DNA from: Alphaproteobacteria bacterium
GTDB lineage: Bacteria; Pseudomonadota; Alphaproteobacteria; Acetobacterales; Acetobacteraceae
Direction: 5' to 3'
NCBI GenBank assembly: GCA_016869715.1
Contig: VGDM01000002.1
Span: 1 to 64,000, forward strand
DNA length: 64,000 bases
A program made the translations under genes and the position numbers. Positions 21,237 to 52,097 of the stretch are shown here, one piece after another. A model generated the notes under the pieces. That model saw nothing but the letters and a program-made list of their open reading frames with translations, did no database searches and was not told where the DNA came from. The stretch's first letter is position 1; every line of letters begins with the position of its first letter.

Positions 21237-21280
21237 GCATTTTCAACCCAAGTGGCAACACTTGGCAGCTCGGAAAATGC
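21237..21280 (+). repeat. 44-bp nested-hairpin repeat, copy A
   Basis: GCATTTTCAACCCAAGTGGCAACACTTGGCAGCTCGGAAAATGC. Confidence 0.9.
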
Positions 21281-21295
21281 GACCGGCGGGAGTTG

Positions 21296-21339
21296 GCATT
21301 TTCAAGCCAAGTGGCAATACTTCGCGACCCGGAAAATGC
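21296..21339 (+). repeat. 44-bp nested-hairpin repeat, copy B
   Basis: GCATTTTCAAGCCAAGTGGCAATACTTCGCGACCCGGAAAATGC. Confidence 0.9.
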
Positions 21340-21355
21340 GACCAAACGGAAGTTG

Positions 21356-21399
21356 GCATTTTCAAGCCAAGTGGCAACACTTGGCAGCTCGGAAAATGC
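21356..21399 (+). repeat. 44-bp nested-hairpin repeat, copy C
   Basis: GCATTTTCAAGCCAAGTGGCAACACTTGGCAGCTCGGAAAATGC. Confidence 0.92.
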
Positions 21400-21493
21400 G
21401 ACCAGACAGAGATTCAGAAAGATAGCCGTGAACCAACAGGCACGGAAATCGCACCGGCGTCAGCAGCCGTCCGCATCACGACACCAGCAATCC

Positions 21494-21835
21494 TCAATCC
21501 ACAATGAACAGCTTCGCCCCGATATTGGTGCGCGACATATGCGGCTCCGCCCCATCCGCTACCTGATAGGACATGCCAGGCTTCAGCACAAAGACGCGCC
21601 CATCGGCCAAGGTGGTTTCCAATTCGCCTCCAAGCACCAGCAGCACATGCCCCTTTTGGCACCAATGATCCGCGACATAGCCAGGTGAATATTCCACCAT
21701 GCGCACGCGAATTGGGTTTTTCGCCGGGCCGACACGGCGCGTGCGCCACAGCGCTTCACCGGTCACACCCGCATGGCGCGTCGGTTCCACCTGCGCCCAA
21801 TCAGTCGTATCGAAAGCATTGGCAGCCATCTGCAT
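21494..21835 (-). CDS. DHCW-motif cupin fold protein
   Basis: YSPGYVADHWCQKGHVLLVLGGELETTLADGRVFVLKPGMSYQV. Confidence 0.8.
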   Translation of the reverse strand: MQMAANAFDTTDWAQVEPTRHAGVTGEALWRTRRVGPAKNPIRVRMVEYSPGYVADHWCQKGHVLLVLGGELETTLADGRVFVLKPGMSYQVADGAEPHMSRTNIGAKLFIVD

Positions 21836-21848
21836 GCATCAAGAACCC

Positions 21849-22439
21849 TTACGCATGGCCGGCGGCGGAAGAAAGCCAGGCCGGATGCACCTTCAGTTTC
21901 CCAAGCGCGGCATGCCAGGCGGTGCTGGCGTCCTGATGGAATAGCAGCGCCTCATCTGCCGGCACACTCAGCCAGGAATTGCGCTGGATTTCCTCTTCCA
22001 ATTGCCCTGGCGCCCAACCGGCATAGCCAAGCGCCAGCAAGCCCTGGCGCGGCCCCCCGCCGCTGGCAATCGCGCTCAAGATGTCCACGCTGGCCGTGAG
22101 CGCGAGTCCAGTGCTGAACCCAAGGCTGCCATCTGCCGACCAATCATCCGTATGCAGCACAAAACCGCGGCCAGCTTCCACCGGCCCGCCGGACACCAGC
22201 CGGATCTGGCGCTGGGAAGGCACGGTTTTCAGGCCAAGCTGTTTCAGCAATTTGTCGAACGGTAGGCCTTCAATCGGGCGGTTCACCATCAGCCCCATCG
22301 CGCCGTCAGCCGAATGGTTGCACAGGCACACCACGCTTTGCGCAAAGCGCGGGTCTTCCATGCCCGGCATAGCAATCAGCAAATGCCCGGTCAGATAATC
22401 GCCAGCCTTGGCGGCGGCCGCTTTGCCCTTTCTGGCCAT
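21849..22439 (-). CDS. YqgE/AlgH family protein
   Basis: YLTGHLLIAMPGMEDPRFAQSVVCLCNHSADGAMGLMVNRPIEG. Confidence 0.92.
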   Translation of the reverse strand: MARKGKAAAAKAGDYLTGHLLIAMPGMEDPRFAQSVVCLCNHSADGAMGLMVNRPIEGLPFDKLLKQLGLKTVPSQRQIRLVSGGPVEAGRGFVLHTDDWSADGSLGFSTGLALTASVDILSAIASGGGPRQGLLALGYAGWAPGQLEEEIQRNSWLSVPADEALLFHQDASTAWHAALGKLKVHPAWLSSAAGHA

Positions 22440-22583
22440 GGGAAAGATGTGGTGCTGCCCGCGCGCCCCTGCAAGCCTTGTTTTTCGGGGCTTGACCGAG
22501 GGATCATTCGGGCGCATCGCGCTTCTCAGAAAAATGCCAAGCTTTAACGCAACCCCAGTAACCCTGAGTTTAGATGAGGTCCC

Positions 22584-23366
22584 TTGCTCGCGCTTCGTGT
22601 CATTCCCTGCCTGGATGTGATGGATGGTCGCGTCGTTAAGGGCGTGAAATTCGTGGCATTGCGCGACGCCGGGGACCCGGTGGAACAGGCGCGCAATTAT
22701 GACCGCGAAGGCGCGGATGAGATCACCTTCCTTGACATCACCGCCTCGGCCGAAAACCACGATACGATCCTGGATGTGGTCTCCCGCACGGCAGCTGAGG
22801 TCTTCATCCCGCTGACCGTGGGCGGCGGGGTGCGGAGCGTGAATGATGCGCGCCGGCTTTTATTGGCGGGCGCTGATAAGGTTTCGATCAATTCGGCGGC
22901 GGTTTCGGACCCTGATCTGGTGCGCCGCGCGGCCGAGGTTTTCGGCAGCCAGGCCATTGTTATCGCGATTGATGCGCGTCGGCGCGATGTAGGCGGCGGG
23001 TTTGAGGTGTACACCCATGGCGGGCGGCGCGGCACTGGCATGGATGCCATTGCCTGGGCCAGGCAGGTGGAAACGCTGGGCGCGGGGGAAATCCTGCTGA
23101 CCTCCATGGATCGAGATGGCACCAAGCAGGGCTTTGATCTTGAACTGACCGCCGCCGTGCGTGCCGCCACGCGCCTGCCGATTGTGGCATCCGGCGGCGT
23201 TGGGGAATTGCGCCACTTCGTAGAAGGCGCGAAAGCAGGCGCCACCGGTCTGCTCGCGGCCAGTGTTTTCCATTACGGGGTGTTCCGGATTGCGGAGGCC
23301 AAGGCCGCACTTGCTGCCGCTGGTTTGCCCATCCGCCCAGTTAAAAATGTGCAGGAAGCCGCGTAA
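22584..23366 (+). CDS. hisF: Imidazole glycerol phosphate synthase subunit HisF
   Basis: [54 protein letters not shown]. Confidence 0.96.
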
Positions 23367-23942
23367 ATGGCCAAGGCAACAAAGCCCGGCGAGGCAAAGC
23401 GCGCCAAGGCGAAACCAGCCGAGAAGTTAATGAAAAAGCTCAGCGTCATAGAGAAAATTGCCAAGAAGAAAGCGGCACTGCCATTACCGGGCGGGCTGAA
23501 GGCGAAGCGTGCAAAATTGCCCAAGCGCATTCGCAAGGTGGAAGCGCGCGTGCTGGAACCGCTCAGCATTTCGTCCGCTGGTGTTGATGCCATGATCCTG
23601 GATCGGCTGTGGGAAACGGTGGAACAGCGCCGCCTTGCGGGCGATGTCACCACATCCCATTCGGCACGGCTCATGGCGCGCGGCACCGCCAAGGTCGCCC
23701 AAAAATTCGGCGAAGAAGCGGTGGAGTGCGTGATCGAGGCGACCATCGGCAATCGCGCCGCCACGGTGCTCGAATCAGCCGATGTGCTCTACCACCTGAT
23801 GGTGATCTGGGTGGATGCAGGCATCCGGCCAGACGAAGTCTGGGCCGAATTGGCCCGCAGGCAAGGCATTAGCGGCATTGCCGAAAAGGCAGCGCGACCC
23901 CAGGGCATTATCCGCGCTGCCGGCACCACCAAACTGCCTTAG
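23367..23942 (+). CDS. hisE: Phosphoribosyl-ATP pyrophosphatase HisE with Lys/Ala-rich N-terminal extension
   Basis: [48 protein letters not shown] preceded by ~70 residues rich in K/A. Confidence 0.92.
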
Positions 23943-23951
23943 GGTTTAGAG

Positions 23952-24050
23952 GAGATCACGTTCAGAAGGAAAATCTGAACGTGTGAAGATACTCGAAAAA
24001 CAACGAGGTAGAGCGGGTGGCGTGAACACATGTGAACGCAACACGCTCTA
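23952..24050. repeat. ~100-bp two-hairpin intergenic element, copy 1
   Basis: CACGTTCAGA-aggaaaa-TCTGAACGTG hairpin plus AGAGCGGGTGGCGTGAACACATGTGAACGCAACACGCTCT; matches the reverse complement of 61134..61236. Confidence 0.88.
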
Positions 24051-25220
24051 GGCAGCGCGGAGATGCCCAGGGTTGAACAGGCCGCCAGGGTCCAAGGCTT
24101 CCTTCACCCGCGCGCTGATCCTGGCGAGTGGCGCTGGCTCCGCAGGCAAGACCGGTACGGCAAGGCGTAGCGATTCCGGTGCGCGAAACAGCATGGCCGC
24201 CCCGGCCTCGGCCCCTGCCGCCGCGCTGATGGCGGCGTGATTGGCTGTGCTGGGCGTAGCCGCGACCCAGACCAGTCCACCGCCCCAATCCAGCAGGACA
24301 CGACCACCAATCGCGCTTGCCGCGGCGGCGACGCGCGGCCCGGCAGAAGGGCGCACCGATACGCGCCAGATCGCTTCATTCGGCATGGCCTGTAGCGGTT
24401 CCACTTCACGCATACTGCGCCAGAACGCGCGGCTTTCACCATCGTCCATCACGCGTTGCGCGCCAAAATTATCCAGCAAGTCGCGCAGCTTTTGCATGCG
24501 ATAGGCGACGGAGGCTGCGAAATCCTCAAGCCGCAGCGCCGCGACTGCATGATTCTGGCCAGGTAGCGCCGCTGCTGCGGAGACACCGAAGGGACTGCCG
24601 AGCCCAGCGGAAAGCGCGGCTGCGGTACTGGCAAGATCAGGCGCTTCAATCAGGAGCGTCGCACTGGTTTCAGGTGCAGGCAACACCTTGAGCGTGACTT
24701 CCGTGATGACGCCAAGCGTGCCGTAAGACCCAGATAAAAGCTTGCACAAATCAAGCCCCGTCACGTTCTTGAGCACGCGCCCGCCAGAACGAATGGCCTC
24801 ACCCGCGCCATTGATAAAGCGCAGCCCCATCACATGATCGCGTGTGGCACCCCAGGCGATACGTCGCGGCCCAGAGAGATTGGCAGCCACCACGCCACCA
24901 ATGCTCGGCAAGGCTGAGGTGGCGAATACGCCGTTCAAATAGGGCGCTTCGGCAATAAGCTGCTGGCCTTTCTCTGCGACGGTCGCCTCAATTTCAGCGA
25001 GTGGCGTGCCCGCGCGCGCGCTGATAATCAGCTCCGCTGGACGATAGAGCGTAACCCCCGTTAGCGCCCGCGTGGAGAGGCTGCGCGCGGCCTGCACGGG
25101 GCGCAGCATTCCGCGCTTTGAACCCTGCCCTTCAATGGCCAGCGGCTCACGCGCAGCACGTGCAGCCTGTACCGCGGCGATGATGCCGGCCTCATCGGCT
25201 GGCGTGATCAGGGTGCTCAT
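24048..25220 (-). CDS. glcE: Glycolate oxidase FAD-binding subunit GlcE
   Basis: LSTRALTGVTLYRPAELIISARAGTPLAEIEATVAEKGQQL...FINGAGEAIRSGGRVLKNVTGLDLCKLLSGSYGTLGVITEVTLKVLP. Confidence 0.9.
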   Translation of the reverse strand: MSTLITPADEAGIIAAVQAARAAREPLAIEGQGSKRGMLRPVQAARSLSTRALTGVTLYRPAELIISARAGTPLAEIEATVAEKGQQLIAEAPYLNGVFATSALPSIGGVVAANLSGPRRIAWGATRDHVMGLRFINGAGEAIRSGGRVLKNVTGLDLCKLLSGSYGTLGVITEVTLKVLPAPETSATLLIEAPDLASTAAALSAGLGSPFGVSAAAALPGQNHAVAALRLEDFAASVAYRMQKLRDLLDNFGAQRVMDDGESRAFWRSMREVEPLQAMPNEAIWRVSVRPSAGPRVAAAASAIGGRVLLDWGGGLVWVAATPSTANHAAISAAAGAEAGAAMLFRAPESLRLAVPVLPAEPAPLARISARVKEALDPGGLFNPGHLRAA

Positions 25221-26665
25221 TCGGGGGCGATCGCCGGCTGAAGCGCGCCCTCGAGCGGGAATACCTTGGCCGGGTTGAGCAACCAGGCGGGATCGAAGGC
25301 TGACTTGATGGCGCGCTGCTGCGTCAGTTCATGTTCTGCGAATTGCACATTCATGAGATCACGCTTTTCCACGCCAACGCCATGCTCGCCCGTCAGGCAG
25401 CCGCCGACTTCGACGCAAAGCTTCAGGATATCGGCGCCAAAGGCCTCCGCGCGGCGGAAACCATCAACGTCATTCGCATCAAACATGATCAGCGGATGCA
25501 GATTGCCATCGCCGGCATGGAACACATTCGCAACCTTCAAGCCGTATTGTTTGCTCATTTCGCCAATGCGCTTCAACACATGCGGTAATTCGCTGGTCGG
25601 GATGGTGCCGTCCATACACAAATAATCCGGGCTGATGCGCCCTACCGCGCCAAAGGCACCCTTGCGACCCTTCCAGATGGCCAGGCTTTGTTCCACCGTT
25701 TCCGCAACCTTCAGGCTGATCGCATCAAACCGCGCACAAATATCCTTTATCCGTGCCAGCAGCGCATCCTGTTCCGCGATGCTGCCTTCCACTTCAATGA
25801 TCAGCATGGCTTCCGCATCCAAGGGATAGCCGGCGTGGGCAAAGGCCTCACAAGCATGGATGCAGGGCTTGTCCATGAATTCCAACGCCACTGGGATGAT
25901 GCCGCTGCCGATAATGGCATCCACCGCAGCGCCCGCGATTTCAATCGAATTAAAGGCGGCAAGCATGGCACGCGCGCCTTCGGCGCTCCGCAGGATGCGC
26001 ACTGTCACTTCTGTGACAATGCCCAATTGACCTTCACTGCCGGTAATTAGCCCAAGCCAATCATAGCCTGCCGCATCCAGATGGGTGCCGCCAATCTCCA
26101 AAACTTCGCCTTCAATGGTGACGAATTTCACGCCGAGCAGATTATTCGCCGTCACGCCATATTTCAGGCAATGCGCGCCGCCGGAATTCATCATCACATT
26201 GCCACCGATCATGCAGGCAAGCTGCGATGATGGATCGGGTGCGTAGAAAAACCCTTCACCCTCGACCGCCTTGGTGATGCCGATATTCGTGACCCCAGCA
26301 CCGACAACTGCGTAGCGATCCGCGTAATTGATCTCATGAATCGCATTGAGCCTCGTGAGACCAACCACTACCGCATCGGCCAAGGGCAGCGCCCCGCCGG
26401 AAAGGCTGGTCCCCGCCCCGCGCGGCACCACGCGAATGCCTTGTTCATGGCAATAGCGCAGCACAGCCGCGACCTGGTCGGTCGAGGAAGGCAAAACCAC
26501 CCCAAGCGGTATCTGCCGATAGGCGGCCAGGCCATCGGTTTCATAGGGCTTGAGACGGATACCTTCGGCGATCACGCCATCACTGGGCACCAAGGCTTGA
26601 AGCGCGGCGACGATTTCCGCACGGCGGGCAAGAATGTCAGGCTTTGGGGCGGGCAGGGGGATCAT
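25217..26665 (-). CDS. glcD: Glycolate oxidase subunit GlcD (FAD-linked oxidase)
   Basis: VVPRGAGTSLSGGALPLADAVVVGLTRLNAI...GGNVMMNSGGAHCLKYGVTANNLLGVKFV...HAGDGNLHPLIMFD...GEHGVGVEKRDLM. Confidence 0.93.
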   Translation of the reverse strand: MIPLPAPKPDILARRAEIVAALQALVPSDGVIAEGIRLKPYETDGLAAYRQIPLGVVLPSSTDQVAAVLRYCHEQGIRVVPRGAGTSLSGGALPLADAVVVGLTRLNAIHEINYADRYAVVGAGVTNIGITKAVEGEGFFYAPDPSSQLACMIGGNVMMNSGGAHCLKYGVTANNLLGVKFVTIEGEVLEIGGTHLDAAGYDWLGLITGSEGQLGIVTEVTVRILRSAEGARAMLAAFNSIEIAGAAVDAIIGSGIIPVALEFMDKPCIHACEAFAHAGYPLDAEAMLIIEVEGSIAEQDALLARIKDICARFDAISLKVAETVEQSLAIWKGRKGAFGAVGRISPDYLCMDGTIPTSELPHVLKRIGEMSKQYGLKVANVFHAGDGNLHPLIMFDANDVDGFRRAEAFGADILKLCVEVGGCLTGEHGVGVEKRDLMNVQFAEHELTQQRAIKSAFDPAWLLNPAKVFPLEGALQPAIAPE

Positions 26666-26774
26666 TGCGGCTTCCTTTGCTGACCGGAAGATGTGCATAA
26701 GGGAGCAACAGGGCAAGGGCTAAGGCCGCACCGGCCGGGCAAACCCGCCTTCATCGGCGCCGCGGATTGGAGCA

Positions 26775-28112
26775 ATGAGCATGAACCAGAGCCAGGGCAC
26801 CAAAGCGCCGCTTCGCATCGTGGTGGTCGGCGGCGGGGCGGCGGGGCTGGAACTCGTAACCCGGCTCGGCCACCGCTATGCTAGGAGCGGTGAGGCCGAG
26901 GTCACGCTTGTGGAACGCGCCCGCACGCATCTGTGGAAGCCGCTGCTGCATGCGGTGGCGGCCGGCAGCCTCGATCGGGACCGGCATGAACTGCATTACC
27001 TTCGCCAGGCCCATAATCACCACTTCACCTATCGCTTCGGGCCAATGACCGGTCTTGATCGGGAAGCGCGCGAAGTCCTGGTTGGCGCCACGATTGATGA
27101 TGAAGGCCGCCAGGTCACGCCACCAAGCCGCGTGCCCTATGATACGCTGGTAATCTGCATCGGCAGTGTGACCAATGATTTCGGCACGCCTGGGGCAGCG
27201 GAACACGCCGTGCCGCTGGAAAATGTTGCGCAAGCAAGCCGTTTTCATCGCCGCTTGGTCAATGCTTGCCTGCGCGCTAATAGCCAACCCGAACCGGTGC
27301 GCGCGGGCCAGCTTCATGTTGCCATTATCGGTGCGGGCGCCACCGGCACGGAATTGGCCGCTGAACTGCACCGCACCTTGCGCGCCGTAGTCGCCTATGG
27401 CTTGGACAAGATTGACCCGGCGCGCGATGTCCGCATCCGGCTGATTGAAGCGGCGCCGCGCATCCTGCCCGCCTTGCCCGAGCGTATTTCCGCCGCCACG
27501 GTAAAACTACTTGAAGATTTGGGCGTTGAAGTTCTGGTTGGGCGACGCGTTGCAGAAGTGCGCGCCGATGGCGTTGTGCTTGCCGATGGCGCGGTGATCC
27601 CAGGCGAGCTTGTGGTCTGGGCCGCCGGCGTGAAAGGCCCAGCCGTGCTCCGCAGTATTGGTGGGCTTGAAACCACGGCGACAGATCAGTTGGTCGTATT
27701 GCCTACCCTGCAAACCACACGCGACCCGGACATATTTGCACTTGGCGATTGCGCCGCCTGCCCGCGCCCCGATGGCAAGGGCAATTTGCCACCGCGCGCC
27801 CAGGCCGCGCATCAGCAGGCAACGCATCTTTTCCGCCAGATTGACCGCAAAATCCGTGGGCTGGAAGTTGAGGCCTTTGCCTATCGCGATTTCGGTTCGC
27901 TGGTCTCGCTTGGGAAATACTCAACCCTGGGCAGCCTGATGGGCTTTTTGGTTGGGCGCAGCATGTTCATTGAGGGCTATTTTGCGCGGATGATGTATCG
28001 GTCCTTGTACAAGATGCACCAGACCGCGCTGCATGGGCATGCGCCGGTGCTGTGGAAGACACTGGTTGGGCTGATTGCGGATAGGGGACAGTCTCAGGTG
28101 AAGCTGCATTGA
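26775..28112 (+). CDS. ndh: Type II NADH dehydrogenase (NAD(P)/FAD-dependent oxidoreductase)
   Basis: RIVVVGGGAAGLELVTRLGHRY...HVAIIGAGATGTELAAELHRTL...FALGDCAACPRPDGKGNLPPRAQAAHQQA. Confidence 0.9.
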   Translation: MSMNQSQGTKAPLRIVVVGGGAAGLELVTRLGHRYARSGEAEVTLVERARTHLWKPLLHAVAAGSLDRDRHELHYLRQAHNHHFTYRFGPMTGLDREAREVLVGATIDDEGRQVTPPSRVPYDTLVICIGSVTNDFGTPGAAEHAVPLENVAQASRFHRRLVNACLRANSQPEPVRAGQLHVAIIGAGATGTELAAELHRTLRAVVAYGLDKIDPARDVRIRLIEAAPRILPALPERISAATVKLLEDLGVEVLVGRRVAEVRADGVVLADGAVIPGELVVWAAGVKGPAVLRSIGGLETTATDQLVVLPTLQTTRDPDIFALGDCAACPRPDGKGNLPPRAQAAHQQATHLFRQIDRKIRGLEVEAFAYRDFGSLVSLGKYSTLGSLMGFLVGRSMFIEGYFARMMYRSLYKMHQTALHGHAPVLWKTLVGLIADRGQSQVKLH

Positions 28113-28214
28113 GGTGATGCGGCGTGACCTGCTCTTACTCCAGACACGAAATGGGGGCCAAAGCCCCTGCTCGCAACGCACAGCGCTCCCCCGCAGGCCG
28201 AAGCCTGCGCAATC

Positions 28215-28340
28215 TCAGCCCTGGCGGGCTTTCAGGCGCGGATTCTTCTTGTTGATCACATAAACCCGACCGCGGCGGCGCACCACAACGCAGTTCTTGT
28301 CGCGGGTCTTGGCAGTCTTCAGCGAGTTACGAATTTTCAT
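28215..28340 (-). CDS. rpmJ: 50S ribosomal protein L36 (YkgO-type), 41 aa, absent from supplied ORF track
   Basis: Reverse-strand translation [41 protein letters not shown]. Confidence 0.95.
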
Positions 28341-28406
28341 TGGTCTAACCTTTTGAAGGCCAGGCTTCTAAGCGGAGCAGGGGGCCAAGTCAACCCATTG
28401 CGGTCC

Positions 28407-29624
28407 CTATTCAGCGGCGCGGCGTTCCTCATCCATGATGCGCAGAAACCCGTCGCGGGTCTGGGGCAGCTTGCTGCCCATGATTTGTTCGGCCACCTGC
28501 GTCCGCAGCACCTGCGCCGTGCCGCCGGCAATGGCGAACATGCGGGCATCGCGCAAATAGCGCTCCATCGGGTTGTCGCGCGAATAACCAGCCGCACCCC
28601 AGACCTGCAAAGCCTGGTTGGTCACGCGAATTGCCATCTCGCCGGCCAATACCTTGGCTTGCGCGGCGGCAAGCCGATCCGGAAAGCCGTTCGGCCCCGC
28701 GCTTTTTGCCGCTCGCCACACCAAGGCCCGGGCCGCCTGCACCTCAATCGACATATCCGCCAACATCCAGGCAAGGCCCTGAAATTCGCCAATCGGCCGG
28801 CCGAATTGGCGGCGGGTCTGCGCACGCTCCAACGCATGTTCATAAGCCCCGGCGGCTAGCCCAAGCGCCACTGTCGCCGCCCCCACGCGCTGGCCATTAT
28901 AGGCATCAATCAGCCGGCCAAAACCCCGCGCCCAGCCGCCGGGTGGGCGCAGCACCATGCTATCGGTCACTTCCAGCCCGGCGATTTCTGTCTCGGCTTC
29001 GGGCATCCCACAAAGACCGAGGGAGGGGATGCGCTTAAAGCTGATCCCAGGCGGCGGGCCGTCGCCCTGGCGGACCACCAGAAAGCCGCCAATCCCCTGA
29101 TCGCGCCCATCTTCAATCACGCGCGCGAAGATCAAATGCAGTCGGGAAACCCCGCCGCCCGTGATCCAGGTCTTGCGGCCATTGATCAGCCATGTATCGC
29201 CATGGCGCACCGCGCGCGTGGTCATTTCGGTCGCAGCCGAACCGGCTTCCGGTTCCGTGATCAGAATGGCGGGCTTGTCGCCGGCCAGCACCAGATCGGC
29301 AGCGATACGCTTTTGCGCGTGTGTCCCATAGGCCATGATGGCGCTAATGGCACCCATATTGGCTTCGACAGCAATGCGGCCACAAACCGCGCAGGCCTTG
29401 GAAAATTCCTCAATCACCAGGGCAGCGTCGAAATAATCGCTCCCTACCCCGCCCCATTCGCGCGGCACTGTCAGGCCCGTGAAGCCGGCCTCTGCCATGC
29501 GCCGCACCATGGGCCAGGGATAGGCGCCGGAGCGATCGGTCTCGGCGGCTTGGACTGCCGCTTCGCGCGCCAATTCCCGCGCCCGGTCGCGCAGCCTCGC
29601 CTGGTCTAGGGTCAAGCCATCCAT
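28407..29624 (-). CDS. Acyl-CoA dehydrogenase family protein
   Basis: ITEPEAGSAATEMTTRAVRHGDTWLINGRKTWITGGG...GFGRLIDAYNGQRVGAATVALGLAAGAYEHAL...QVWGAAGYSRDNPMERYLRDARMFAIAGGTAQV. Confidence 0.92.
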   Translation of the reverse strand: MDGLTLDQARLRDRARELAREAAVQAAETDRSGAYPWPMVRRMAEAGFTGLTVPREWGGVGSDYFDAALVIEEFSKACAVCGRIAVEANMGAISAIMAYGTHAQKRIAADLVLAGDKPAILITEPEAGSAATEMTTRAVRHGDTWLINGRKTWITGGGVSRLHLIFARVIEDGRDQGIGGFLVVRQGDGPPPGISFKRIPSLGLCGMPEAETEIAGLEVTDSMVLRPPGGWARGFGRLIDAYNGQRVGAATVALGLAAGAYEHALERAQTRRQFGRPIGEFQGLAWMLADMSIEVQAARALVWRAAKSAGPNGFPDRLAAAQAKVLAGEMAIRVTNQALQVWGAAGYSRDNPMERYLRDARMFAIAGGTAQVLRTQVAEQIMGSKLPQTRDGFLRIMDEERRAAE

Positions 29625-29628
29625 GATG

Positions 29629-30399
29629 TCAGCCTTTATATAAACGTGCTTCAATTGCCGCCGCCGCAGCGCGATCCAGTTTGAGCGCCTTGGCGAATTG
29701 ATCAAGCCAGGCGCGCTCGGCGGCGGCGATTTCTCCTGCACCAACCACGGCGGCGGCGTAAAGCTGAGCGGCCAGCATGGGGTCACTCGCCAATTTCGCG
29801 AGTGCGTCGGGCGCCAGCGGCTTGTCGAAATCGGCCAGCAACTTGTCGCGCGCGGCGGGGCTGAGGCCCGCGCCATCCAATTGCGCGGTGATGCGCCTGC
29901 GTTCTTCGGCAGCAATGGCGCCATCGGCCTTGGCGGCCGCGATCATGGCGCGCAGCATGAGCAACGCCTCGGCTGTCTCCGCGCTGGATTCCTCTTCGGG
30001 CGCGGCGGCGACAGGCGCCCAATCGTCGGCGGCGGGTTTGGTGGCCCCAGGCGCATTCCCCCCGGAGCTGGCGCTGGCGGGCGCAGCCTTCAACCCGCCC
30101 TGGCCGGGAGCCTTTTTGACTGGCGCTGTGCCGGTTGGGGCTTGGCGCGACGGCCCGGCCCAATCGAAACCGCCGCTACCCTTGCTGGGGGAGGATGTTG
30201 GTCGAGGCGCTGGCGCCGCGCTCTGGCTCTGGCGAAGTGCTTCAATCGCCATGCCAGCCAGCCCCGCCAAGGCCCGCCCAAGCTGCGCATTGCCGACGGG
30301 GGGACGCCGTGTGCCGAAGCCGGCAGGGCTGCGCCGCCGAGGCGCCGCATCTCCACGCAATACCGCTCCTATGAGCTGCCCAAGATCGAACCCGGCCAT
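29629..30399 (-). CDS. DUF533 / TerB-like domain protein
   Basis: MAGFDLGQLIGAVLRG... plus C-terminal LMLRAMIAAAKADGAIAAEERRRITAQLDGAGLS. Confidence 0.72.
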   Translation of the reverse strand: MAGFDLGQLIGAVLRGDAAPRRRSPAGFGTRRPPVGNAQLGRALAGLAGMAIEALRQSQSAAPAPRPTSSPSKGSGGFDWAGPSRQAPTGTAPVKKAPGQGGLKAAPASASSGGNAPGATKPAADDWAPVAAAPEEESSAETAEALLMLRAMIAAAKADGAIAAEERRRITAQLDGAGLSPAARDKLLADFDKPLAPDALAKLASDPMLAAQLYAAAVVGAGEIAAAERAWLDQFAKALKLDRAAAAAIEARLYKG

Positions 30400-30424
30400 G
30401 CGAAGCCCTCCCTGAAAAGCAGCA

Positions 30425-31342: not shown

Positions 31343-31406
31343 TTATATTTTGGCGGCATCGCCGCACGGATATTTGATATGTCCCGCCTGCTGATCGCTT
31401 CAACCC

Positions 31407-32648: not shown

Positions 32649-32687
32649 ATTGCTTCTTCTTGTCTCACGCGCCCAGGCCTATGAGTG

Positions 32688-33056
32688 TCAAACGTCCTTG
32701 GTCTCAAACTCCGCCGGACCGGTGATTTCGATCAATTCCAGATCTTCCGAATGCGCAACTTCACGATGCTTCACCAAGGGCGGCTGATAGCAGCTATCGC
32801 CGGCGCGGAATTCCTTTACGCCGATATCCTCATATTCAAAGCGCACCCAGCCCTTCAGCACAAAGAACATCTGAAACTTCAGATTATGCGTATGCCATTG
32901 CCCAGTGGCATGGGCGCCGGGGATGGCGCGAATGACATGCGCACCAAAGGCGCCGTCGGTGGCGCCCTTGATGCCAAGATCACGATATTCAAAAAACGGA
33001 CGCAGGCCGCGGACGAATGCCGAACCTTCGGCATGGCTGGTGGTTGTGGTGGTCAT
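32688..33056 (-). CDS. Cupin domain protein
   Basis: HTHNLKFQMFFVLKGWVRFEYEDIGVKEFRAGDSCYQPPLVKH. Confidence 0.8.
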   Translation of the reverse strand: MTTTTTSHAEGSAFVRGLRPFFEYRDLGIKGATDGAFGAHVIRAIPGAHATGQWHTHNLKFQMFFVLKGWVRFEYEDIGVKEFRAGDSCYQPPLVKHREVAHSEDLELIEITGPAEFETKDV

Positions 33057-40283: not shown

Positions 40284-40284
40284 A

Positions 40285-41784: not shown

Positions 41785-41785
41785 T

Positions 41786-42709: not shown

Positions 42710-42774
42710 GCCCCATGCTTGACCGATGCAGGGGAGGATTTCAAGCAGCGCGCAAGACAGACTATAGAACCGTG

Positions 42775-44439: not shown

Positions 44440-44500
44440 CTTGCGGTAATGCGTAAGGCTTGCAAGGCTTCCTTATCTGCAAGGAACAGGAGGAAACATC

Positions 44501-45253
44501 ATGCGCGTAGCAAACAAGGTGGCCCTGATCACGGGTGCTGCATCCGGCATGGGCGCTGCGACCGCGCGATTAGTGGCGCGCGAAGGTGCCAAGGTGGTGG
44601 TGGCCGATATGATGGAAGCCGAAGGCCGCGCCGTTGTGGCCGAGATCACCAAGGCCGGCGGTTCCGCCAGCTACATCAACCTTGATGTGGCCGATGAAGC
44701 GCAATGGGAAGCCGCCATTGCCGCCGTGCTGGCTGCGCATGGCAGGCTTGATGTATTGGTGAATAATGCCGGCATATCCGGCAGCAATACCAATAATCTT
44801 TACGACACGACGCTGTGGGATCGCATCATGGCGGTGAATGCGCGCGGCGTATTTCTTGGCGTGAAGCATGGTGTTGCCGCCATGCGGCAATCAGGTGGCG
44901 GGTCCATCATCAACCTATCCTCGATCTCGGGCGTGGTTGGGCAGGATCGCATTCACTGCGCCTATAATGCCTCAAAGGCAGCAGTGCGCTTGCTGACGAA
45001 ATCCATCGCCGTGCAGGAAGGCGCTTCCGGTATTCGCCTGAACACGGTGCATCCCGGCCTCATGCCACCCATGCGCACCAGTGGCGCGACGGCCGATCCC
45101 GTGTTTCGTGCGAAAATGCTGGGCCATGTGCCCATGGGCCGCACCGGTGAGGTGGATGAAGTGGCTTACGCCATCCTGTTCCTGGCATCGGATGAATCAT
45201 CCTATATGACCGGATCAGAAATGCATGTGGATGGCGGGTATCTCGCTTCCTAA
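44501..45253 (+). CDS. SDR-family oxidoreductase
   Basis: VALITGAASGMGAATARLVAREGAKVVVADMM, NNAGISG, YNASKAAVRLLTKS. Confidence 0.93.
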   Translation: MRVANKVALITGAASGMGAATARLVAREGAKVVVADMMEAEGRAVVAEITKAGGSASYINLDVADEAQWEAAIAAVLAAHGRLDVLVNNAGISGSNTNNLYDTTLWDRIMAVNARGVFLGVKHGVAAMRQSGGGSIINLSSISGVVGQDRIHCAYNASKAAVRLLTKSIAVQEGASGIRLNTVHPGLMPPMRTSGATADPVFRAKMLGHVPMGRTGEVDEVAYAILFLASDESSYMTGSEMHVDGGYLAS

Positions 45254-45258
45254 GGCGC

Positions 45259-46131
45259 CTATGCGGAGGCCGCGTTTGATGCGGCTTCCGCCAAGGCGAC
45301 AATGCGTTCCATATTGGGCACCAGATCCATGGCGATGAAGGTGCCATCAATATAGGCGAGGTTTTCGCCCTTCGCCGATGCCTCCTGAAAAGCCGCGATA
45401 TAGCGCCTGGCTTGCGCAACCTCATCGGCGCTTGGGGTGAAGGCGTCATTCACCGGGGCGATCTGGTCCGGGTGAAACACCACCTTGCCGCTGAAGCCCA
45501 AGTCGCGCGCCGCTTCGGCATCCTGCCGCGTGGCGGAAACATCGCGCAGATCAGCAAGATAAGGCGCATCCAAAGCCTGCGCGCCCACGGCGCCCGCAGC
45601 TGCCACCAGCATTTGGCGCGGAAATTCCAGAACACGCGGCGTGATGCGCCCGCCTGTTCGCATGGTGTAATCGCCAGGCCCAAGAAAAAACGCGGCCAGA
45701 CGCGGCGATGCATCGGCGATTTGCAGCGCATTCAAAATGCCGCGTGGCGTTTCAAGCGTGGCAATCACGGCAATATCCCGCCCAGGCGCGGCGGCGTCCA
45801 AGGCAGCAGCAAGCTTCTGCAAATCCTCCGCATGCTCCACCTTTGGCAGCATCACCGCATCAAGCTGCGCCCAGGGCAGCGCTGCCATATCGGCTCTGAA
45901 ATCTGCCGAGCCAATGGCATTCAGCCGCACCGCTTTCTCACGTCGGCCAAAGGAAAGTTCAGTGACGGCGCGCGCCACTACCGCGCGCGCTTCTGCCTTG
46001 CGCGCCGGCGGTACGGCATCTTCCAAATCAAAAATCAGGCTATCCGCGGCAAGCCCCACCGCCTTGGCAAGCCGTTCTGGCCGATGCCCTGGCGTGATCA
46101 TCACCGAACGACGCATGCGCCAGGAAGGCAT
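45259..46131 (-). CDS. CoA ester lyase (HpcH/HpaI aldolase / CitE-like)
   Basis: SVMITPGHRPERLAKAVGLAADSLIFDLEDAVPPARKAEAR...VMLPKVEHAEDLQKL. Confidence 0.9.
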   Translation of the reverse strand: MPSWRMRRSVMITPGHRPERLAKAVGLAADSLIFDLEDAVPPARKAEARAVVARAVTELSFGRREKAVRLNAIGSADFRADMAALPWAQLDAVMLPKVEHAEDLQKLAAALDAAAPGRDIAVIATLETPRGILNALQIADASPRLAAFFLGPGDYTMRTGGRITPRVLEFPRQMLVAAAGAVGAQALDAPYLADLRDVSATRQDAEAARDLGFSGKVVFHPDQIAPVNDAFTPSADEVAQARRYIAAFQEASAKGENLAYIDGTFIAMDLVPNMERIVALAEAASNAASA

Positions 46132-46146
46132 GATGCGCTGCCTGCC

Positions 46147-47364
46147 TCAGATGACTTGCGCTTTGGTCAGGCGATCAATTTCCGCATCGGCAAGGCCGAG
46201 CCATTGGCGATAAACCTCATTATTATGTTCGCCCATGCTGGGGCCAAGCCAGCGCACTTCGCCCGGCGTGTCTGACAACCGTGGCACCAGATTGGGGATT
46301 GCCAATTCGCCAACGCGCGGGTCCTTCATCATCAGGATATTGTCGCGCGCCTTATATTGGGGGTCCTTGAAAATCTCATCAATCGCATAGACCGGACCGC
46401 AAGGAACCTGCGCCTTTTCGCACAAGGCAAGCAATTCATCGCGCGTGAATTGGCTGGTCCAATTGCCGACATAGGCATCCACTTCCGCGCGCGCGGCTTC
46501 GCGTTGGCGGATCTTGCCCCATTTGCCGTCTTCTGCGAATTCCGGCACGCCCATCGCTTCTGCAAGCCGCGCGAAAATCTTGTCCGACGTGCAGGCAATC
46601 GCGATCCAGCGGCCATCCTTGGTGGGGTAATGGCTATGCGGCACAACATTCACCGTGCCCGGCCCCATGCGTTCGCGGATATAGCCATTCAACTGATAGG
46701 ATGGGGCCAATTCATCAAGAATGCGGAAGATCGGCTCATAAAGGCCAATATCCACCATCTGCCCCTTGCCGGTTTTGCGCCGCGCTTCCATGGCCAGCAA
46801 GGCACCCATCGCGCCATACATGCCGGCCAGATAATCCGGAATGGTCGCCGAACCGGGCGTGACGGGCGGGCGATCCGGATAGCCCGCAAGATAGGAAAGC
46901 CCACCAAAGGCATTGCCAATGCGCCCAAAGCCAGGCCGCCCGCTATAGGGTCCGGTTTGCCCATAGCCTGAAATACGTATCATGATCAGGCGCGGATTGA
47001 CTTCCTGCATCACATCCCAGCCGAGGCCCCATTTTTCCATGGTGCCGGGCTGAAAATTCTCAACCAGGATATCGGCCTCCGCGCACATGCGCTTCAGCAG
47101 CGCAGCACCTTCAGGCTTGCGCAAATCGAGTGTTGCGGATTTCTTGTTCCGGCATTCGGAAAGCCAAGGCAGCGTCTCACCGCATTCCGTGACCGAGCCG
47201 AATTTGCGCAAGGGGTCGCCCACAATCGGCAATTCAAGCTTGATGACCTCGGCGCCGAATTCGGCAAGCTGCGTGGAACAAAAAGGCCCCGCCAGAAAGC
47301 TTGAAACATCAATCACGCGAACACCATCAAGTGGCTGAACGCGCTGTGAGGCAGTGTCATTCAT
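46147..47364 (-). CDS. CaiB/BaiF family III CoA transferase
   Basis: PLDGVRVIDVSSFLAGPFCSTQLAEFGAEVIKLELPIVGDPLRKFG...NKKSATLDLRKPEGAALLKRMCAEADILVENFQPGTMEKWGLG. Confidence 0.95.
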   Translation of the reverse strand: MNDTASQRVQPLDGVRVIDVSSFLAGPFCSTQLAEFGAEVIKLELPIVGDPLRKFGSVTECGETLPWLSECRNKKSATLDLRKPEGAALLKRMCAEADILVENFQPGTMEKWGLGWDVMQEVNPRLIMIRISGYGQTGPYSGRPGFGRIGNAFGGLSYLAGYPDRPPVTPGSATIPDYLAGMYGAMGALLAMEARRKTGKGQMVDIGLYEPIFRILDELAPSYQLNGYIRERMGPGTVNVVPHSHYPTKDGRWIAIACTSDKIFARLAEAMGVPEFAEDGKWGKIRQREAARAEVDAYVGNWTSQFTRDELLALCEKAQVPCGPVYAIDEIFKDPQYKARDNILMMKDPRVGELAIPNLVPRLSDTPGEVRWLGPSMGEHNNEVYRQWLGLADAEIDRLTKAQVI

Positions 47365-47422
47365 GGCGGATTTCCCCTTGTGTTGGGGCATTTTGCGGTG
47401 GAAGATTTCCCCCGGTCAAGAT

Positions 47423-47436
47423 GGTCTTGCAAGACC
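47423..47436. promoter_or_regulatory. 14-bp perfect palindrome between divergent CaiB and TctC genes, candidate operator
   Basis: GGTCTTGCAAGACC is self-complementary and lies between the starts at 47364 (-) and 47457 (+). Confidence 0.45.
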
Positions 47437-47456
47437 GAAGCATAAGGAAACGCCAC

Positions 47457-48419
47457 ATGATCCAACGCCGCGCCATGCTCGCCGCGCCCTTCATCCTGCC
47501 AGGCTTTGCGCAAGCGCAAGGCACCTGGCCGCAACGCCCGGTACGTGTGATTGTGCCCTTCGCTGCCGGGGGCGGAACTGATCTGACCGCGCGTGCGGTG
47601 ATGGAAACTATCGGCACCAGGCTCAATCGCCCTGTGGTGGTGGAAAATCGCCCCGGTGCTGATGGTGCGATTGGCACGGAAGCCGTGGCGCGCAGCGCGC
47701 CAGATGGGCATACGCTGATTTCGCTGAACCCAACGCATCTGATCCTGCGCCACACCAAGCCTGATCTGCCCTATGACCCAACTGGCGATTTGACGCCTGT
47801 GGCTGTCTCGGCCCTTTACGCCTTTGTTCTGCTGGCAAGCAGCGAAGCGCCGTTTCGCGATATTCCCGGCCTGATCGCTGCCGCCAAGGCAAGGCCCGGT
47901 GCGATTGCACATGCGACCGCTGATGTTGCTTCCGCCGTGGTGGCCGCGCAATTCACCCGCACGGCGGGCATTGAATTGAATGAAATTCGCTATTCCGGTG
48001 GCGGTGCCTCCACGCGTGATCTGATGGGCGGGCATTTGCCACTCGCCTGGGTCAGCACTGCCACTGCCTTGCCGCTGATGCAAAGTGATCGCGTGCGCAT
48101 CATTGCGGTGACTTCGCCGCGCCCATCCGTGCATTTGCCGCAAGTGCCAAGCCTTGCGAGCTTCGGTTTAGGTGCCGCGAGCTATGAGGGCTGGTTCGCC
48201 ATTTGGGCGCCGGCGCGCACGCCCGAAGACGTGCTGCAAAGGATCAATGCCGAAGCCCGCGCCGCGCAGGATATTGAAGCTGTCCAGGCGCGACTACGCA
48301 ATCTGGCGGTCGACCCCGCGCCGCTCGATCTTGCGGCAGTGCGCGCCCTGATCAAAGAAGATGAGGCACGCTGGCAGCGCGCCGCAGATCAAGGTTTTCT
48401 GCGTCGCGCTGCGGGGTAG
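47457..48419 (+). CDS. Tripartite tricarboxylate transporter substrate-binding protein (Bug/TctC family)
   Basis: WPQRPVRVIVPFAAGGGTDLTARAVMETIGTRLNRPVVVENRPGADGAIGTEAVARSAPDGHTLI. Confidence 0.92.
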   Translation: MIQRRAMLAAPFILPGFAQAQGTWPQRPVRVIVPFAAGGGTDLTARAVMETIGTRLNRPVVVENRPGADGAIGTEAVARSAPDGHTLISLNPTHLILRHTKPDLPYDPTGDLTPVAVSALYAFVLLASSEAPFRDIPGLIAAAKARPGAIAHATADVASAVVAAQFTRTAGIELNEIRYSGGGASTRDLMGGHLPLAWVSTATALPLMQSDRVRIIAVTSPRPSVHLPQVPSLASFGLGAASYEGWFAIWAPARTPEDVLQRINAEARAAQDIEAVQARLRNLAVDPAPLDLAAVRALIKEDEARWQRAADQGFLRRAAG

Positions 48420-48421
48420 GA

Positions 48422-48465
48422 ACATTTTCAAGCCAAGTGGAAGCACTTGGCGGCTCGGAAAATGC
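48422..48465 (+). repeat. 44-bp nested-hairpin repeat, copy D
   Basis: ACATTTTCAAGCCAAGTGGAAGCACTTGGCGGCTCGGAAAATGC. Confidence 0.9.
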
Positions 48466-48475
48466 AACCAAAAAA

Positions 48476-50026
48476 TTACTCCGCCGCGCGGCCCATGAAG
48501 CTGCCTTCCGGCAGTGCTGGCGCGCGCGGTGCCTCACACCCCGTATCGCAGCAACGGCCGGGCTGTTTTGAGACGCGCTTGCCCTCATCCAGAATGCCGC
48601 GATCCAGCAGGCGTTCAACAAGCGCTGAGCGCTCCTCAACCGGGTAATTGCGCCAAATCTCGCGCTTCATCGCCTCGGGGCTACCGCCACCATGGAGCGA
48701 TATCACCGAATACCAGCCGCCCTGGTTGGATGCGGTCAAATCTTCCATGAAGCGCGCGACTTCCAGGCGCTTTTCAGCCGGCACATCCGCGCGCCCCGCC
48801 AGTACGGCGGCAAGGGATGCGGCGGTTTCCGGATTATGATCCTCATCCGGGCCAGGCAGTGCCACGATCAAACCGCCCGAGACATAATGCGCAAGCCGAT
48901 GCATGTCATAAATCTGTGTAGCCAGCAGCAATTTACCGATATTGCTGAAGACAGAATCTGGCATCATGGCGCCTGATTTGGCGCGCGTGCCATAGACACT
49001 GGCAGCAACACCACAGGCGAAGAAGCCTTCCACAATCTTGATCAGATCCACCATGGCGTCACGGATATGGCCATGGCGGTCGGTGTCCAGGCCGTTCGCT
49101 TCAATCATTAAAGCCCCTGCACCGATCAGCAAATCACCAAAGCCAGCCCGCGCGGCAATGCAGGAATGGCGATGATGCGTGGCATAGCTTGTGGTGGTGT
49201 AGCCGGCTTGCACATGCTCACCCGCCATGAAGACGCGGTCCCAGGGCACAAAAACATCATCAAACACCACAACGCCGGTGGCTTGGCCGTATTTGGCGCT
49301 GAATTTCGCGGCGGCTTCGCCAGGGCGCCCGGCGGGGCGCGCGACAATCATCACGCCGGGCGCATCAGCGGGCACGGCGCAATGCAGCGCGAAATCGGCG
49401 TCCTCGGCGGTCATGGTGCGGCAGGCCATGACCAGGAATTCATGAACATAAGGCGCGCCGGTCACAATCGCCTTGGTGCCGCGAATGATGATGCCATCCG
49501 CGCGGCGTTCCTTGATATGCACATGCACATCGCGATTGGCCTGCTGGCCCGGGCGCGCGGAACGATCACCCTTGGCATCCGTCATCGCGATACCAAGCGT
49601 CAGGTCCCGCGCCTGCACATCATCCAGATAGGCCAGGAAGCGCTGATGGCGTTCCCCGCCATGCACAGCATCGGCAAGCTTGGTGCCCTGGTGCAGCGCA
49701 TTCAGCGCATCATGCGCCAGATAGCGTTGCGCGCAGCCGGATTCACGGCAGACCAGACGCACCGCTTCCAACTTGGCCAGCAGATCATCCCGGCTGCCAT
49801 TCACATGCAGCATGCGATTGGCAAGCCGCCCGCTCGCTTCCTGCGTCGCCGTCATCAGCCCGGCATATTCTGTGCGGTGGGCGAAATCATACGTCACACC
49901 AATCGCATTGATGCCGGCTGCGAGCAGGGGTTCATCTGCGACACTCGCCACCTGGCGTCCATTCACAAAAACACGCGGCTTCAGCGCCCGGAGCGAATCC
50001 CGATAATCAGCGGCAGTCATTAGCAT
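48476..50026 (-). CDS. HpaB/4-hydroxyphenylacetate 3-hydroxylase N-domain family protein (flavin monooxygenase or 4-hydroxybutyryl-CoA dehydratase-like)
   Basis: PRVFVNGRQVASVADEPLLAAGINAIGVTYDF...DGIIIRGTKAIVTGAPYVHEFLVM...VFDDVFVPWDRVFMAGEH...ATHHRHSCIAARAGFGDLLIGAGALMIEANG. Confidence 0.82.
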   Translation of the reverse strand: MLMTAADYRDSLRALKPRVFVNGRQVASVADEPLLAAGINAIGVTYDFAHRTEYAGLMTATQEASGRLANRMLHVNGSRDDLLAKLEAVRLVCRESGCAQRYLAHDALNALHQGTKLADAVHGGERHQRFLAYLDDVQARDLTLGIAMTDAKGDRSARPGQQANRDVHVHIKERRADGIIIRGTKAIVTGAPYVHEFLVMACRTMTAEDADFALHCAVPADAPGVMIVARPAGRPGEAAAKFSAKYGQATGVVVFDDVFVPWDRVFMAGEHVQAGYTTTSYATHHRHSCIAARAGFGDLLIGAGALMIEANGLDTDRHGHIRDAMVDLIKIVEGFFACGVAASVYGTRAKSGAMMPDSVFSNIGKLLLATQIYDMHRLAHYVSGGLIVALPGPDEDHNPETAASLAAVLAGRADVPAEKRLEVARFMEDLTASNQGGWYSVISLHGGGSPEAMKREIWRNYPVEERSALVERLLDRGILDEGKRVSKQPGRCCDTGCEAPRAPALPEGSFMGRAAE

Positions 50027-50059
50027 GGCAGGGCTTCCCAAACTCAATTGACGAATTAA

Positions 50060-50074
50060 TCTAACACTGTTAGA
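50060..50074. promoter_or_regulatory. 15-bp perfect inverted repeat, candidate TetR operator
   Basis: TCTAACA-C-TGTTAGA between the divergent HpaB-type gene (start ~50026, -) and TetR gene (start 50078/50087, +). Confidence 0.6.
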
Positions 50075-50077
50075 AAT

Positions 50078-50644
50078 GTGCAGTCAATGACTCGCCCAGA
50101 CAAAAAAGCCGCCAAGCGCGACCATATTCTTGCCGCCGCCAAGGCGCTTTTCGCCGAAGCAGGGCTTGAGGGTGCCAGCCTGCGCGCCATCGCCGCGCGC
50201 GCGGGCTATACGCCGGCGGCGCTCTATTTCCATTTTCCTTCGCGTGAAGCGATTTATGCCGAAGTGCTGCGCGATAGCCTGGTGCGCCTGAAGGCAGCGG
50301 TTGCGGCAGGCGCGGCGCAGGCTGGGTTTCGCGGTGCGGCACTCGCCTTGTTTGATTTCTATGCTGCGCATCCGCAGGAATTGGCGCTGGGGTTTTACCT
50401 GGGCGGCGGCGGGCTGGCGCCGCGCGGGCTGGGGCAGCAGCTTGATCCCGGCTTGAACGCCGCGCTGCTGGCAGCATTGGCGCCCATGCGCGTGCCTCGC
50501 GGACAGGAAGCGGCGACAGAAGCCTTCGCGCTTGCGGTTGGTTTGCTGGTCATGTCGGAAACGCGCCGTATCCGGCTATTTGGGCTTTCCGCGCGCGCGC
50601 TCATGGAAAGCCACCTGGCGCGCCTGCCCATCAGCCCGGCTTGA
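50078..50644 (+). CDS. TetR/AcrR family transcriptional regulator
   Basis: RDHILAAAKALFAEAGLEGASLRAIAARAGYTPAALYFHFPSREAIYAEVL. Confidence 0.93.
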   Translation: MQSMTRPDKKAAKRDHILAAAKALFAEAGLEGASLRAIAARAGYTPAALYFHFPSREAIYAEVLRDSLVRLKAAVAAGAAQAGFRGAALALFDFYAAHPQELALGFYLGGGGLAPRGLGQQLDPGLNAALLAALAPMRVPRGQEAATEAFALAVGLLVMSETRRIRLFGLSARALMESHLARLPISPA

Positions 50645-50703
50645 ATGGATTGCCGCGCCCACCCCGGCGCGCGATGCTGCAGCACGGGAAAAGGAATACG
50701 CCG

Positions 50704-52053
50704 ATGAAGCAAATGACGCTGGTTGCCTTTCTGCAGGCGCAGAATTGTTCAAACTATGTGGGGTCCTGGCGCCATCCTGCGACGATGCAGGATTATCTGC
50801 GGCCTGAATATTACCAGCGCATCGCCCGCACGCTTGAAGCCGGCTGCCTTCATATGGCGTTTTTCGATGACCGCCTCGCCATGCCCGATATTCTTGGCCA
50901 TGACCATGCGGAAGCGGTGCGGAATGGCATTCGCGTGGTCAAGCTTGATCTGATTTCGATCCTGACAGCGATGGGGCTTGCCACGTCAAAGCTTGGCCTC
51001 GGCGGGACCTATTCCACTACCTATTACGAACCCTTCCATGTGGCGCGGGTTTTCGCGACGCTTGATCACATGCTGGGTGGGCGTGCTGCCTGGAATGTGG
51101 TGACGTCACTGAATGACAGTGAAGCGCATAACATGGGTGCGGATGATCATCTGGAACATGATCTGCGCTATGATCGTGCTGATGAGTTCATGGAAATTGT
51201 GCTGTCGCATTGGGATTCCTGGGGCGATGACGCCATCATCCAGGACCGCGAGAGCGGCGTCTTCGCCGATGCCGCCAAGGTGCGCCGCCTGGATCACAAA
51301 GGCCAATGGTTCAAAAGCCGTGGTCCCTTCACCGTGCCGCGTACGCCACAGGGTCGGCCCGTTCTGATCCAGGCCGGCCAAAGCGGTCGCGGTAAGAATT
51401 TTGCGGCGCGCTGGGGTGATTTGGTTTTCGTAATCTATCCGAATATGCAAGTCGCCAAGCTCGGCTATAGCGGTTTCAAGGAGCAGGTCGCGGCATCCGG
51501 CCGAGACCCTGCCACGGTATGCATCTGCCCCGCCGTTTATTGCATTGTGGGTGAGACCGAAGCGGCAGCGCAGGAAAAGCGTGCACTGATTGATGGCCTG
51601 GCCAAGCCGCTTGATGGGCTTTCGCTGCTGTCTGAGGCGTTGAATTATGATTTCGCGTCAAAAGGCTTGGATGACGCCTTCACCGATGATGAATTGGCCG
51701 GCATCAAGGGGCTGCAAGCGCTGCGAGATCGCGTGGTGGCGGCCAGCGGCAGACGCAACCCGACCTTGCGCGACTTTGTTGACATCACCGGGCGCGGCAC
51801 CATCCGCGAATTCCCCGTATTTTGCGGCACACCCAAGCGTGTGGCGGATGAAATGCAGGCCTGGGTGGAAGGGGGCGCCTGCGATGGCTTTGTGCTGGGC
51901 GCCACGCACATGCCCGGCACTTATGAGGAATTTGTGCGCTTCGTCGTGCCAGAATTGCAGCGCCGTGGTGTCTTTCGCAAGGAATTCGCGGGCACGACGT
52001 TACGGGAAAATCTCGGCCTGCCGCGCGCGGCGCCTTTCGATTGGCAAAGATGA
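50704..52053 (+). CDS. LLM-class flavin-dependent monooxygenase (NtaA/SnaA/DszA family)
   Basis: ARTLEAGCLHMAFFDDRLAMPD...KLGLGGTYSTTYYEPFHVARVFATLDHMLGGRAAWNVVTSLNDSEAHNMG...VLIQAGQSGRGKNFAARWGDLVFV. Confidence 0.93.
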   Translation: MKQMTLVAFLQAQNCSNYVGSWRHPATMQDYLRPEYYQRIARTLEAGCLHMAFFDDRLAMPDILGHDHAEAVRNGIRVVKLDLISILTAMGLATSKLGLGGTYSTTYYEPFHVARVFATLDHMLGGRAAWNVVTSLNDSEAHNMGADDHLEHDLRYDRADEFMEIVLSHWDSWGDDAIIQDRESGVFADAAKVRRLDHKGQWFKSRGPFTVPRTPQGRPVLIQAGQSGRGKNFAARWGDLVFVIYPNMQVAKLGYSGFKEQVAASGRDPATVCICPAVYCIVGETEAAAQEKRALIDGLAKPLDGLSLLSEALNYDFASKGLDDAFTDDELAGIKGLQALRDRVVAASGRRNPTLRDFVDITGRGTIREFPVFCGTPKRVADEMQAWVEGGACDGFVLGATHMPGTYEEFVRFVVPELQRRGVFRKEFAGTTLRENLGLPRAAPFDWQR

Positions 52054-52097
52054 GTATTTTCAAGCCAAGTGAAATCACTTGGCGACTCCGAAAATAC
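52054..52097 (+). repeat. 44-bp nested-hairpin repeat, copy E, with compensatory stem change
   Basis: GTATTTTCAAGCCAAGTGAAATCACTTGGCGACTCCGAAAATAC; begins at the base after the upstream TGA. Confidence 0.88.

Follow-up and report, generated by a model that had tools for sequence, protein, structure and literature searches.

The closest described counterparts of the element analysed here appear to be alphaproteobacterial intergenic repeats. They include RIME1, the Rhizobium-specific intergenic mosaic element that Osteras et al. reportedly described in 1995 and that is said to have a similar size and two palindromes, as well as Bru-RS1/2 of Brucella, reportedly described by Halling and Bricker in 1994. 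Compared by description rather than letter by letter, these repeats and the present element are alike in being intergenic, in containing two palindromes and in measuring about 103-108 bp. The Bru-RS repeats are 103-105 bp long (PMC2267715), and RIMEs and related two-palindrome repeats of alphaproteobacteria are usually masked in sRNA screens as repeats of unknown function (PMC2573895, PMC2245857). This general kind has already been described, and the present element appears to fit it; what sets the present analysis apart is that insertion at TA, junctions with stop codons and a link to IS630 are argued from empty sites. No description of the present family, of its TA insertion or of its IS630 link was found in the literature searched.

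A second instructive system is the RUP element of Streptococcus pneumoniae, a non-coding repeat of roughly 107 bp that is mobilised by IS630-Spn1, targets TA, shares terminal similarity with an IS630-family insertion sequence and is enriched between convergent genes (PMC2229807, PMC3049150). The similar distribution of RUP, BOX and SPRITE in pneumococcus has been read as that of parasitic mobile elements, and BOX elements of S. pneumoniae also supply stop codons (PMC3049150). The present element resembles RUP in size, lack of coding capacity, TA target, IS630-like ends and enrichment in convergent gaps, with no sequence relation expected; it differs in having two internal hairpins and ends that recreate stop codons. 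The GTAG and CGTC REPs are likewise extragenic palindromic repeats, but they are single hairpins of 20-40 bp with a tetranucleotide tag (PMC3733652). CGTC REPs are mainly alphaproteobacterial, have no known transposase and are missing from the Acetobacteraceae (Di Nocera et al. 2013, PMC3733652). Identity with a CGTC REP was considered and rejected, as size and tag differ and these REPs are reported absent from the very family that carries the element.

The repeats described below are quite likely full and partial copies of a non-autonomous MITE that is moved in trans by an IS630-type transposase and inserts at TA dinucleotides and stop codons.

Hairpin copies in the window and across the genome

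The window (the whole stretch of 64,000 nucleotides that was analysed) contains the five 44-bp nested hairpins claimed by the earlier note, each at its claimed position and on the + strand. The hairpin is here called H1, and a second hairpin found in other copies H2. The features are as follows.

21237-21280, + strand: H1 hairpin copy A, which opens a three-unit tandem array (sequence; covariance-model hit of 63 bits)
21296-21339, + strand: H1 hairpin copy B (sequence; covariance-model hit of 62 bits)
21356-21399, + strand: H1 hairpin copy C (sequence; covariance-model hit of 76 bits)
21234-21411, + strand: tandem array of H1-plus-spacer units with a period of 59-60, between the monomeric idh gene (+) and the DHCW cupin gene (-)
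21412-21455, + strand: possible degenerate H2 remnant (tentative), with the CGTGAAC motif of other H2 copies and no significant stem
48417-48478, + strand: H1-only copy D (core 48422-48465), filling the tctC/hpaB-like gap between the tctC stop TAG (48417-48419) and the hpaB-like stop TTA (48476-48478)
52051-52112, + strand: H1-only copy E (core 52054-52097), filling the LLM monooxygenase/dapB gap between the LLM monooxygenase stop TGA (52051-52053) and the dapB stop TCA (52110-52112)

With up to three mismatches allowed, the inner stem pattern has six matches in the window against 0.69 expected, and none of 100 shuffles reaches six. The neighbouring genes are also those that had been named: idh encodes monomeric isocitrate dehydrogenase (TIGR00178), tctC a TctC receptor, and the LLM monooxygenase is of the NtaA/DmoA type. 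Their stop codons lie 63, 2 and 0 nt, respectively, from the first hairpin core. All three places are convergent gaps (idh/DHCW cupin, tctC/hpaB-like and LLM monooxygenase/dapB). The earlier note recognised no named family in these repeats, in agreement with which Rfam gives no match above the gathering score in the window, and none even at E<=1 around copy D. An intrinsic terminator was another candidate identity that failed: the element's own stems yield no terminator-like match, and the 3' flank, GACCAAACAA, has no T tract.

A blastn search with one copy matched 47 places in the genome of this Roseomonas-like bacterium. A genome-wide covariance model of the kind proposed in the earlier note, here built from 42 copies of this genome, then found 85 copies on both strands of the 3.55-Mb draft at E<1e-4 (these E-values are rough), with both stem covariation and a bias to gene 3' ends. 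Contamination of the draft is estimated at 5.08%, and a second strain may be the source of a few of the copies. Window positions 47402-49365, which hold the convergent tctC and hpaB-like genes, have an 88% identical second copy on contig C84 (positions 1-1963). An H1 element of its own occupies the corresponding place in this copy, which is either a paralogous segment or part of a contaminating second strain.

Structure, relatives and stem covariation of the complete element

Genome-wide copies show that the 44-bp unit was drawn too small: flanks and a spacer belong to the real unit as well, and about half of the copies also have a second hairpin. With a slash marking each terminus, the complete element reads TA/GAGC-(nested hairpin H1)-GCGAcCAAACAAnn-nTAGAGC-(hairpin H2)-GCTC/TA, so that H1 is the left part, about half, of a longer element that usually spans 101-102 bp between the flanking TAs and about 105 bp in all. 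Fresh expansions in other genomes have the form C-TA-GAGCATTTTCAAG-(inner stem)-CGRCTCGGAAAATGCG-spacer-nTAGAGC-(second palindrome)-GCTC-TA-G. As a single strand the element folds into two hairpins (z = -8). In the present genome 46 of the 85 copies have a correctly placed second stem, as compared with 5.6 in shuffled sequence, though a few of these are likely to be spurious. Apart from the internal hairpins, the terminal inverted repeat spans only about 4-7 bp, with ends GAGC...GCTC. TA is enriched at both ends of 176 copies examined in other genomes: it precedes GAGC in 64, and the other left flanks are mostly CG, TG or CA, one or two transitions away; where the right end could be scored (63 copies), the right flank is TA in 41 and the distance between the terminal dinucleotides is 101 or 102 in 57. 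The family therefore has the makings of a MITE, being short (101-102 bp), non-coding, present in 85 copies and bounded by inverted terminal repeats.

The copies that lack such a second stem, among them all those of the window, are H1-only, degenerate at the right, or arranged in an array. The H1 arrays have periods of 59-63 bp, corresponding to H1 plus spacer, and one elsewhere in the genome (contig C7, 93492-93737) consists of four H1 units with a 63-bp period and a second hairpin at its end. The full element is probably the source of both the H1-only copies and the tandem arrays, and the latter could have arisen by unequal exchange between the element's two TAGAGC motifs.

The element occurs in 16 of 200 genomes of the family and in 12 of 385 of the class, a patchy distribution. 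Among the matches listed, the exact H1 pattern is found mostly in Roseomonas metagenome assemblies, Falsiroseomonas, Siccirubricoccus, Roseococcus and Humitalea, and also in sphingomonads and one Rhizobium assembly. Megaplasmids of Sinorhizobium fredii and S. sojae carry full-length homologues at about 75% identity (for pNGR234b of S. fredii, 75% over 107/107 bases, E 8e-8). Homologues on plasmids of Methylobacterium, Novosphingobium and Sphingobium aligned only in part, but prove on inspection to have the same complete architecture.

The claim that the stems covary held up well. Compensatory changes affect 5 of the 16 pairs among the 42 copies of the present genome, and none of 500 shuffles equals this. 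The signal is far stronger between genera than within this genome: in 22 sequences from the present genome, other Acetobacteraceae, Sinorhizobium, Methylobacterium and sphingomonads, compensatory changes affect 11 of 16 pairs, including all 8 of the inner stem, with 41 cells against 8.8 after shuffling and a covariation score of 0.367 against 0.125, and on each of the five measures all 500 shuffles fall short. The inner stem reads CCAAGTG/CACTTGG in the present genome, CTGAGCG/CGCTCAG in genome G059, CCTTGCG/CGCAAGG in G195 and G141, and TCCGGCG/CGCCGGA in G063, while the outer TTTT/AAAA core hardly varies. This covariation shows that the palindrome is maintained. DNA palindromes can, however, be kept by template-switch repair or by the needs of a mobile element, and covariation alone therefore does not show an RNA function.

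Empty sites, stop codons and gene context

The element is polymorphic at orthologous sites, and the full H1+H2 form has been gained as one unit between convergent genes. The comparison drew on a genus set of 35 genomes; in about 19 of them, the matching parts of the stretch searched are 85-94% identical. Of the three window loci, the two that were compared with close relatives (copies D and E) both have orthologous empty sites there. Nine further loci were joined into one query against ten relatives; most of them gave split matches, and each of the seven that were then aligned likewise has an empty site in a relative. Copy D is absent from three relatives, which have GGGTTAGGCGCTACTCC or close variants in its place. 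Copy E has an empty counterpart in ten relatives, with the compared flanks 18-19 nt apart and the stop being TAA in nine and TGA in one. An eleventh relative, G218, has at the orthologue of this site an unrelated insert of about 374 nt between the same two stops; together with the hairpin of the present genome, this means that the convergent gap took up different DNA twice.

At four loci (L028, L113, L008 and L038) relatives lack the full unit as a single block; the L028 copy is shared with G219 and the L038 copy with G223. At a further locus, L122, only G215 is plainly empty, and two other relatives have a different short sequence. The gaps at empty convergent sites are of only a few bases, and insertion polymorphism with empty sites is, again, a property of MITEs. 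A clean TA duplication is seen at one locus only, L038, where G217 reads AGT-TA-AACTGCGG and the present genome AGT-TA-(GGAGC...GAAC)-TA-AACCGCGG; L113 and L008 are compatible with such a duplication. H1-only copies have inserted cleanly at stop codons at L029 and L035, as shown by CTGATCAGG in G222 versus CTGA(GC...GC)GATCA in the present genome. At the H1-only sites of copy E and L029, a TAA stop has become TGA/GC; at H1-only loci the junction reads T/GAGC, with no clear duplication.

Gene context was assigned with a simple home-made gene finder based on codon usage, which called 87% of the window coding. By this measure 79 of the 85 copies are intergenic. With arrays collapsed, the 67 occupied regions that have both neighbours divide into 26 convergent, 35 tandem and 6 divergent, as compared to 21, 110 and 27 among element-free background regions. 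The convergent excess (odds ratio 4.1, p=5e-5) bears out the suspected bias to gene 3' ends, convergent regions being enriched 4-fold. The further impression that all copies are + oriented and lie 3' of a + strand gene was a small-sample pattern: both strands are used genome-wide, and in tandem regions the element runs with the genes in 16 cases and against them in 19. The bias is thus towards gene ends and not towards one RNA strand.

The distance from the upstream stop to the hairpin core peaks at 0-2 nt (14 copies), at which stop codon and left terminus abut or overlap (TAG-GA/GC, TAG-A/GC, TGA/GC, TAA-A/GC). On the opposite side, distances to the facing stop are concentrated at 9-18 nt in H1-only copies and at 52-59 nt in full ones, which places that stop exactly where the element ends. 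A simple way to model these junctions starts from an element entering the TA of a TAA or TAG stop codon. Since the element begins with G, a TAG stop would be rebuilt; since its other end is the mirror image and ends with C, the facing gene would be repaired as well. With both stops restored, insertion into overlapping convergent stops (TTAA, CTAG) would be nearly neutral, and copies at such sites would survive with both genes intact. Purifying selection against insertions in genes and promoters may then account for the remaining 3'-end and convergent bias. The hairpins probably persist because they belong to the mobile DNA, or because the host tolerates hairpins in 3' UTRs, and not because each copy has a function for the host.

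The same bias, along with stem covariation, is what a functional RNA 3'-end element would display, whether a terminator, a processing signal or a stabilising hairpin selected at gene ends, and a palindrome could serve both convergent transcripts. This explanation is nonetheless unlikely. Orientation in tandem regions is random, the copies have no U-tract terminator, orthologous genes of close relatives do without the hairpin, the distribution is patchy, and template-switch repair can also yield covariation in a DNA palindrome. The case is a caution that stem covariation and a position at gene 3' ends are not proof of an RNA regulator.

IS630-type transposons and other candidate movers

The proposal that a MITE is moved in trans by an IS630-type transposase draws on the ends of IS630-family elements from the Acetobacteraceae. 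Six such elements of 1041-1052 bp (L191, L198, L353, L354, L355 and L365) were searched for terminal inverted repeats, assuming TA flanks and no motif, and the best TA-flanked pair began with GAGC or a one-base variant on both sides in all six. They are thus like the present element in TA flanks and terminal GAGC; they differ in being 1.04-1.05 kb long with a transposase gene, and the likeness, which covers the terminal 4-10 bases and at the right end little beyond GAGC, stops short of the hairpins. Several IS630-family transposons of the genus and family begin with GAGCRTTTTC, the left end of the element. One of them, L365 from the same genus, starts with GAGCATTTTCCGATCAG, and its first ten bases, GAGCATTTTC, are those of the MITE left end. 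With at most one mismatch, TA followed by GAGCATTTTCCGATCAG was found in 17 of 300 genomes of the family, and reversed-pattern controls in none. The end of an IS630 transposase gene adjoins five of the eight such sites examined, the transposases being 61-88% identical to that of L191. Two copies of one of the six elements diverge exactly between T[A/G] and GAGC.

An initial search of eight genomes found genes matching DDE_3 (the IS630 family) in seven, and 12 of 16 genomes of the genus have them; G059, which has many identical copies of the element, gave no DDE_3 transposase at E<=0.001. Shared termini and a TA target, as between RUP and its IS630 partner, are both found here. From these likenesses we infer that a transposase of the IS630/Tc1-mariner family would move the element in trans, cutting at TA. 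Together, the empty sites and the matching IS630 ends provide a concrete account of both movement and 3'-end position that invokes no host function. A much broader proposal can be made tentatively, and is itself rather doubtful: an alphaproteobacteria-wide MITE superfamily might have IS630-type ends tuned to regenerate stop codons on both strands at TA, allowing it to settle in overlapping convergent stops as safe sites and to seed bidirectional 3'-UTR hairpins, some perhaps adopted as 3'-end elements.

The same MITE design could instead be served by another mover that targets TA or CTAG, for example one of the IS427 group of IS5. The element ends often read CTAG in several genomes, IS5-type (DUF4096) transposases occur in G059, G063, G195 and G218, and G059 is the genome without DDE_3. 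The present genome and G219, on the other hand, gave no DUF4096 match, and the genus has IS630 copies with matching GAGC ends, so that an IS5-type mover seems improbable.

The earlier note had read the repeats as either a REP-type family or an RNA 3'-end element. Its interspersed hairpin family, covariation and 3'-end bias are retained, a strand-specific RNA role is disfavoured, and the REP part falls away. The imperfect palindrome, extragenic location, high copy number and arrays would all suit a REP-type family with a RAYT (Y1 tyrosine transposase) as its mover, but the search for a RAYT that the note had suggested returned no PF01797 match in the present genome or in ten element-bearing relatives, while control genomes did match. 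Nor is the element a GTAG-tagged repeat of 20-40 bp, having some 105 bp, two hairpins, inverted ends TAGAGC/GCTCTA and TA flanks, and a RAYT-driven origin is accordingly very improbable. Chance palindromes or ordinary look-alike terminators, which a small window sample by itself might have suggested, are refuted by the 85 high-scoring copies and by orthologous presence and absence.

Two further observations concern neighbouring mobile DNA. The only DDE_3 match in the present genome (L196; contig C65, 8533-8673) is a broken remnant of an IS630 transposase with an in-frame TGA and the left end CTA/GAGTCTGACG. At six loci of G059 (L054, L057, L061, L064, L065 and L070), another palindromic module, AGCGGATCGCCGGCGGGCGGACACGCCCGGTGGCGTGAATCCGCGCC, adjoins the element and shares a CTAGAGC junction with it, forming a mosaic of different palindromes in that genome.
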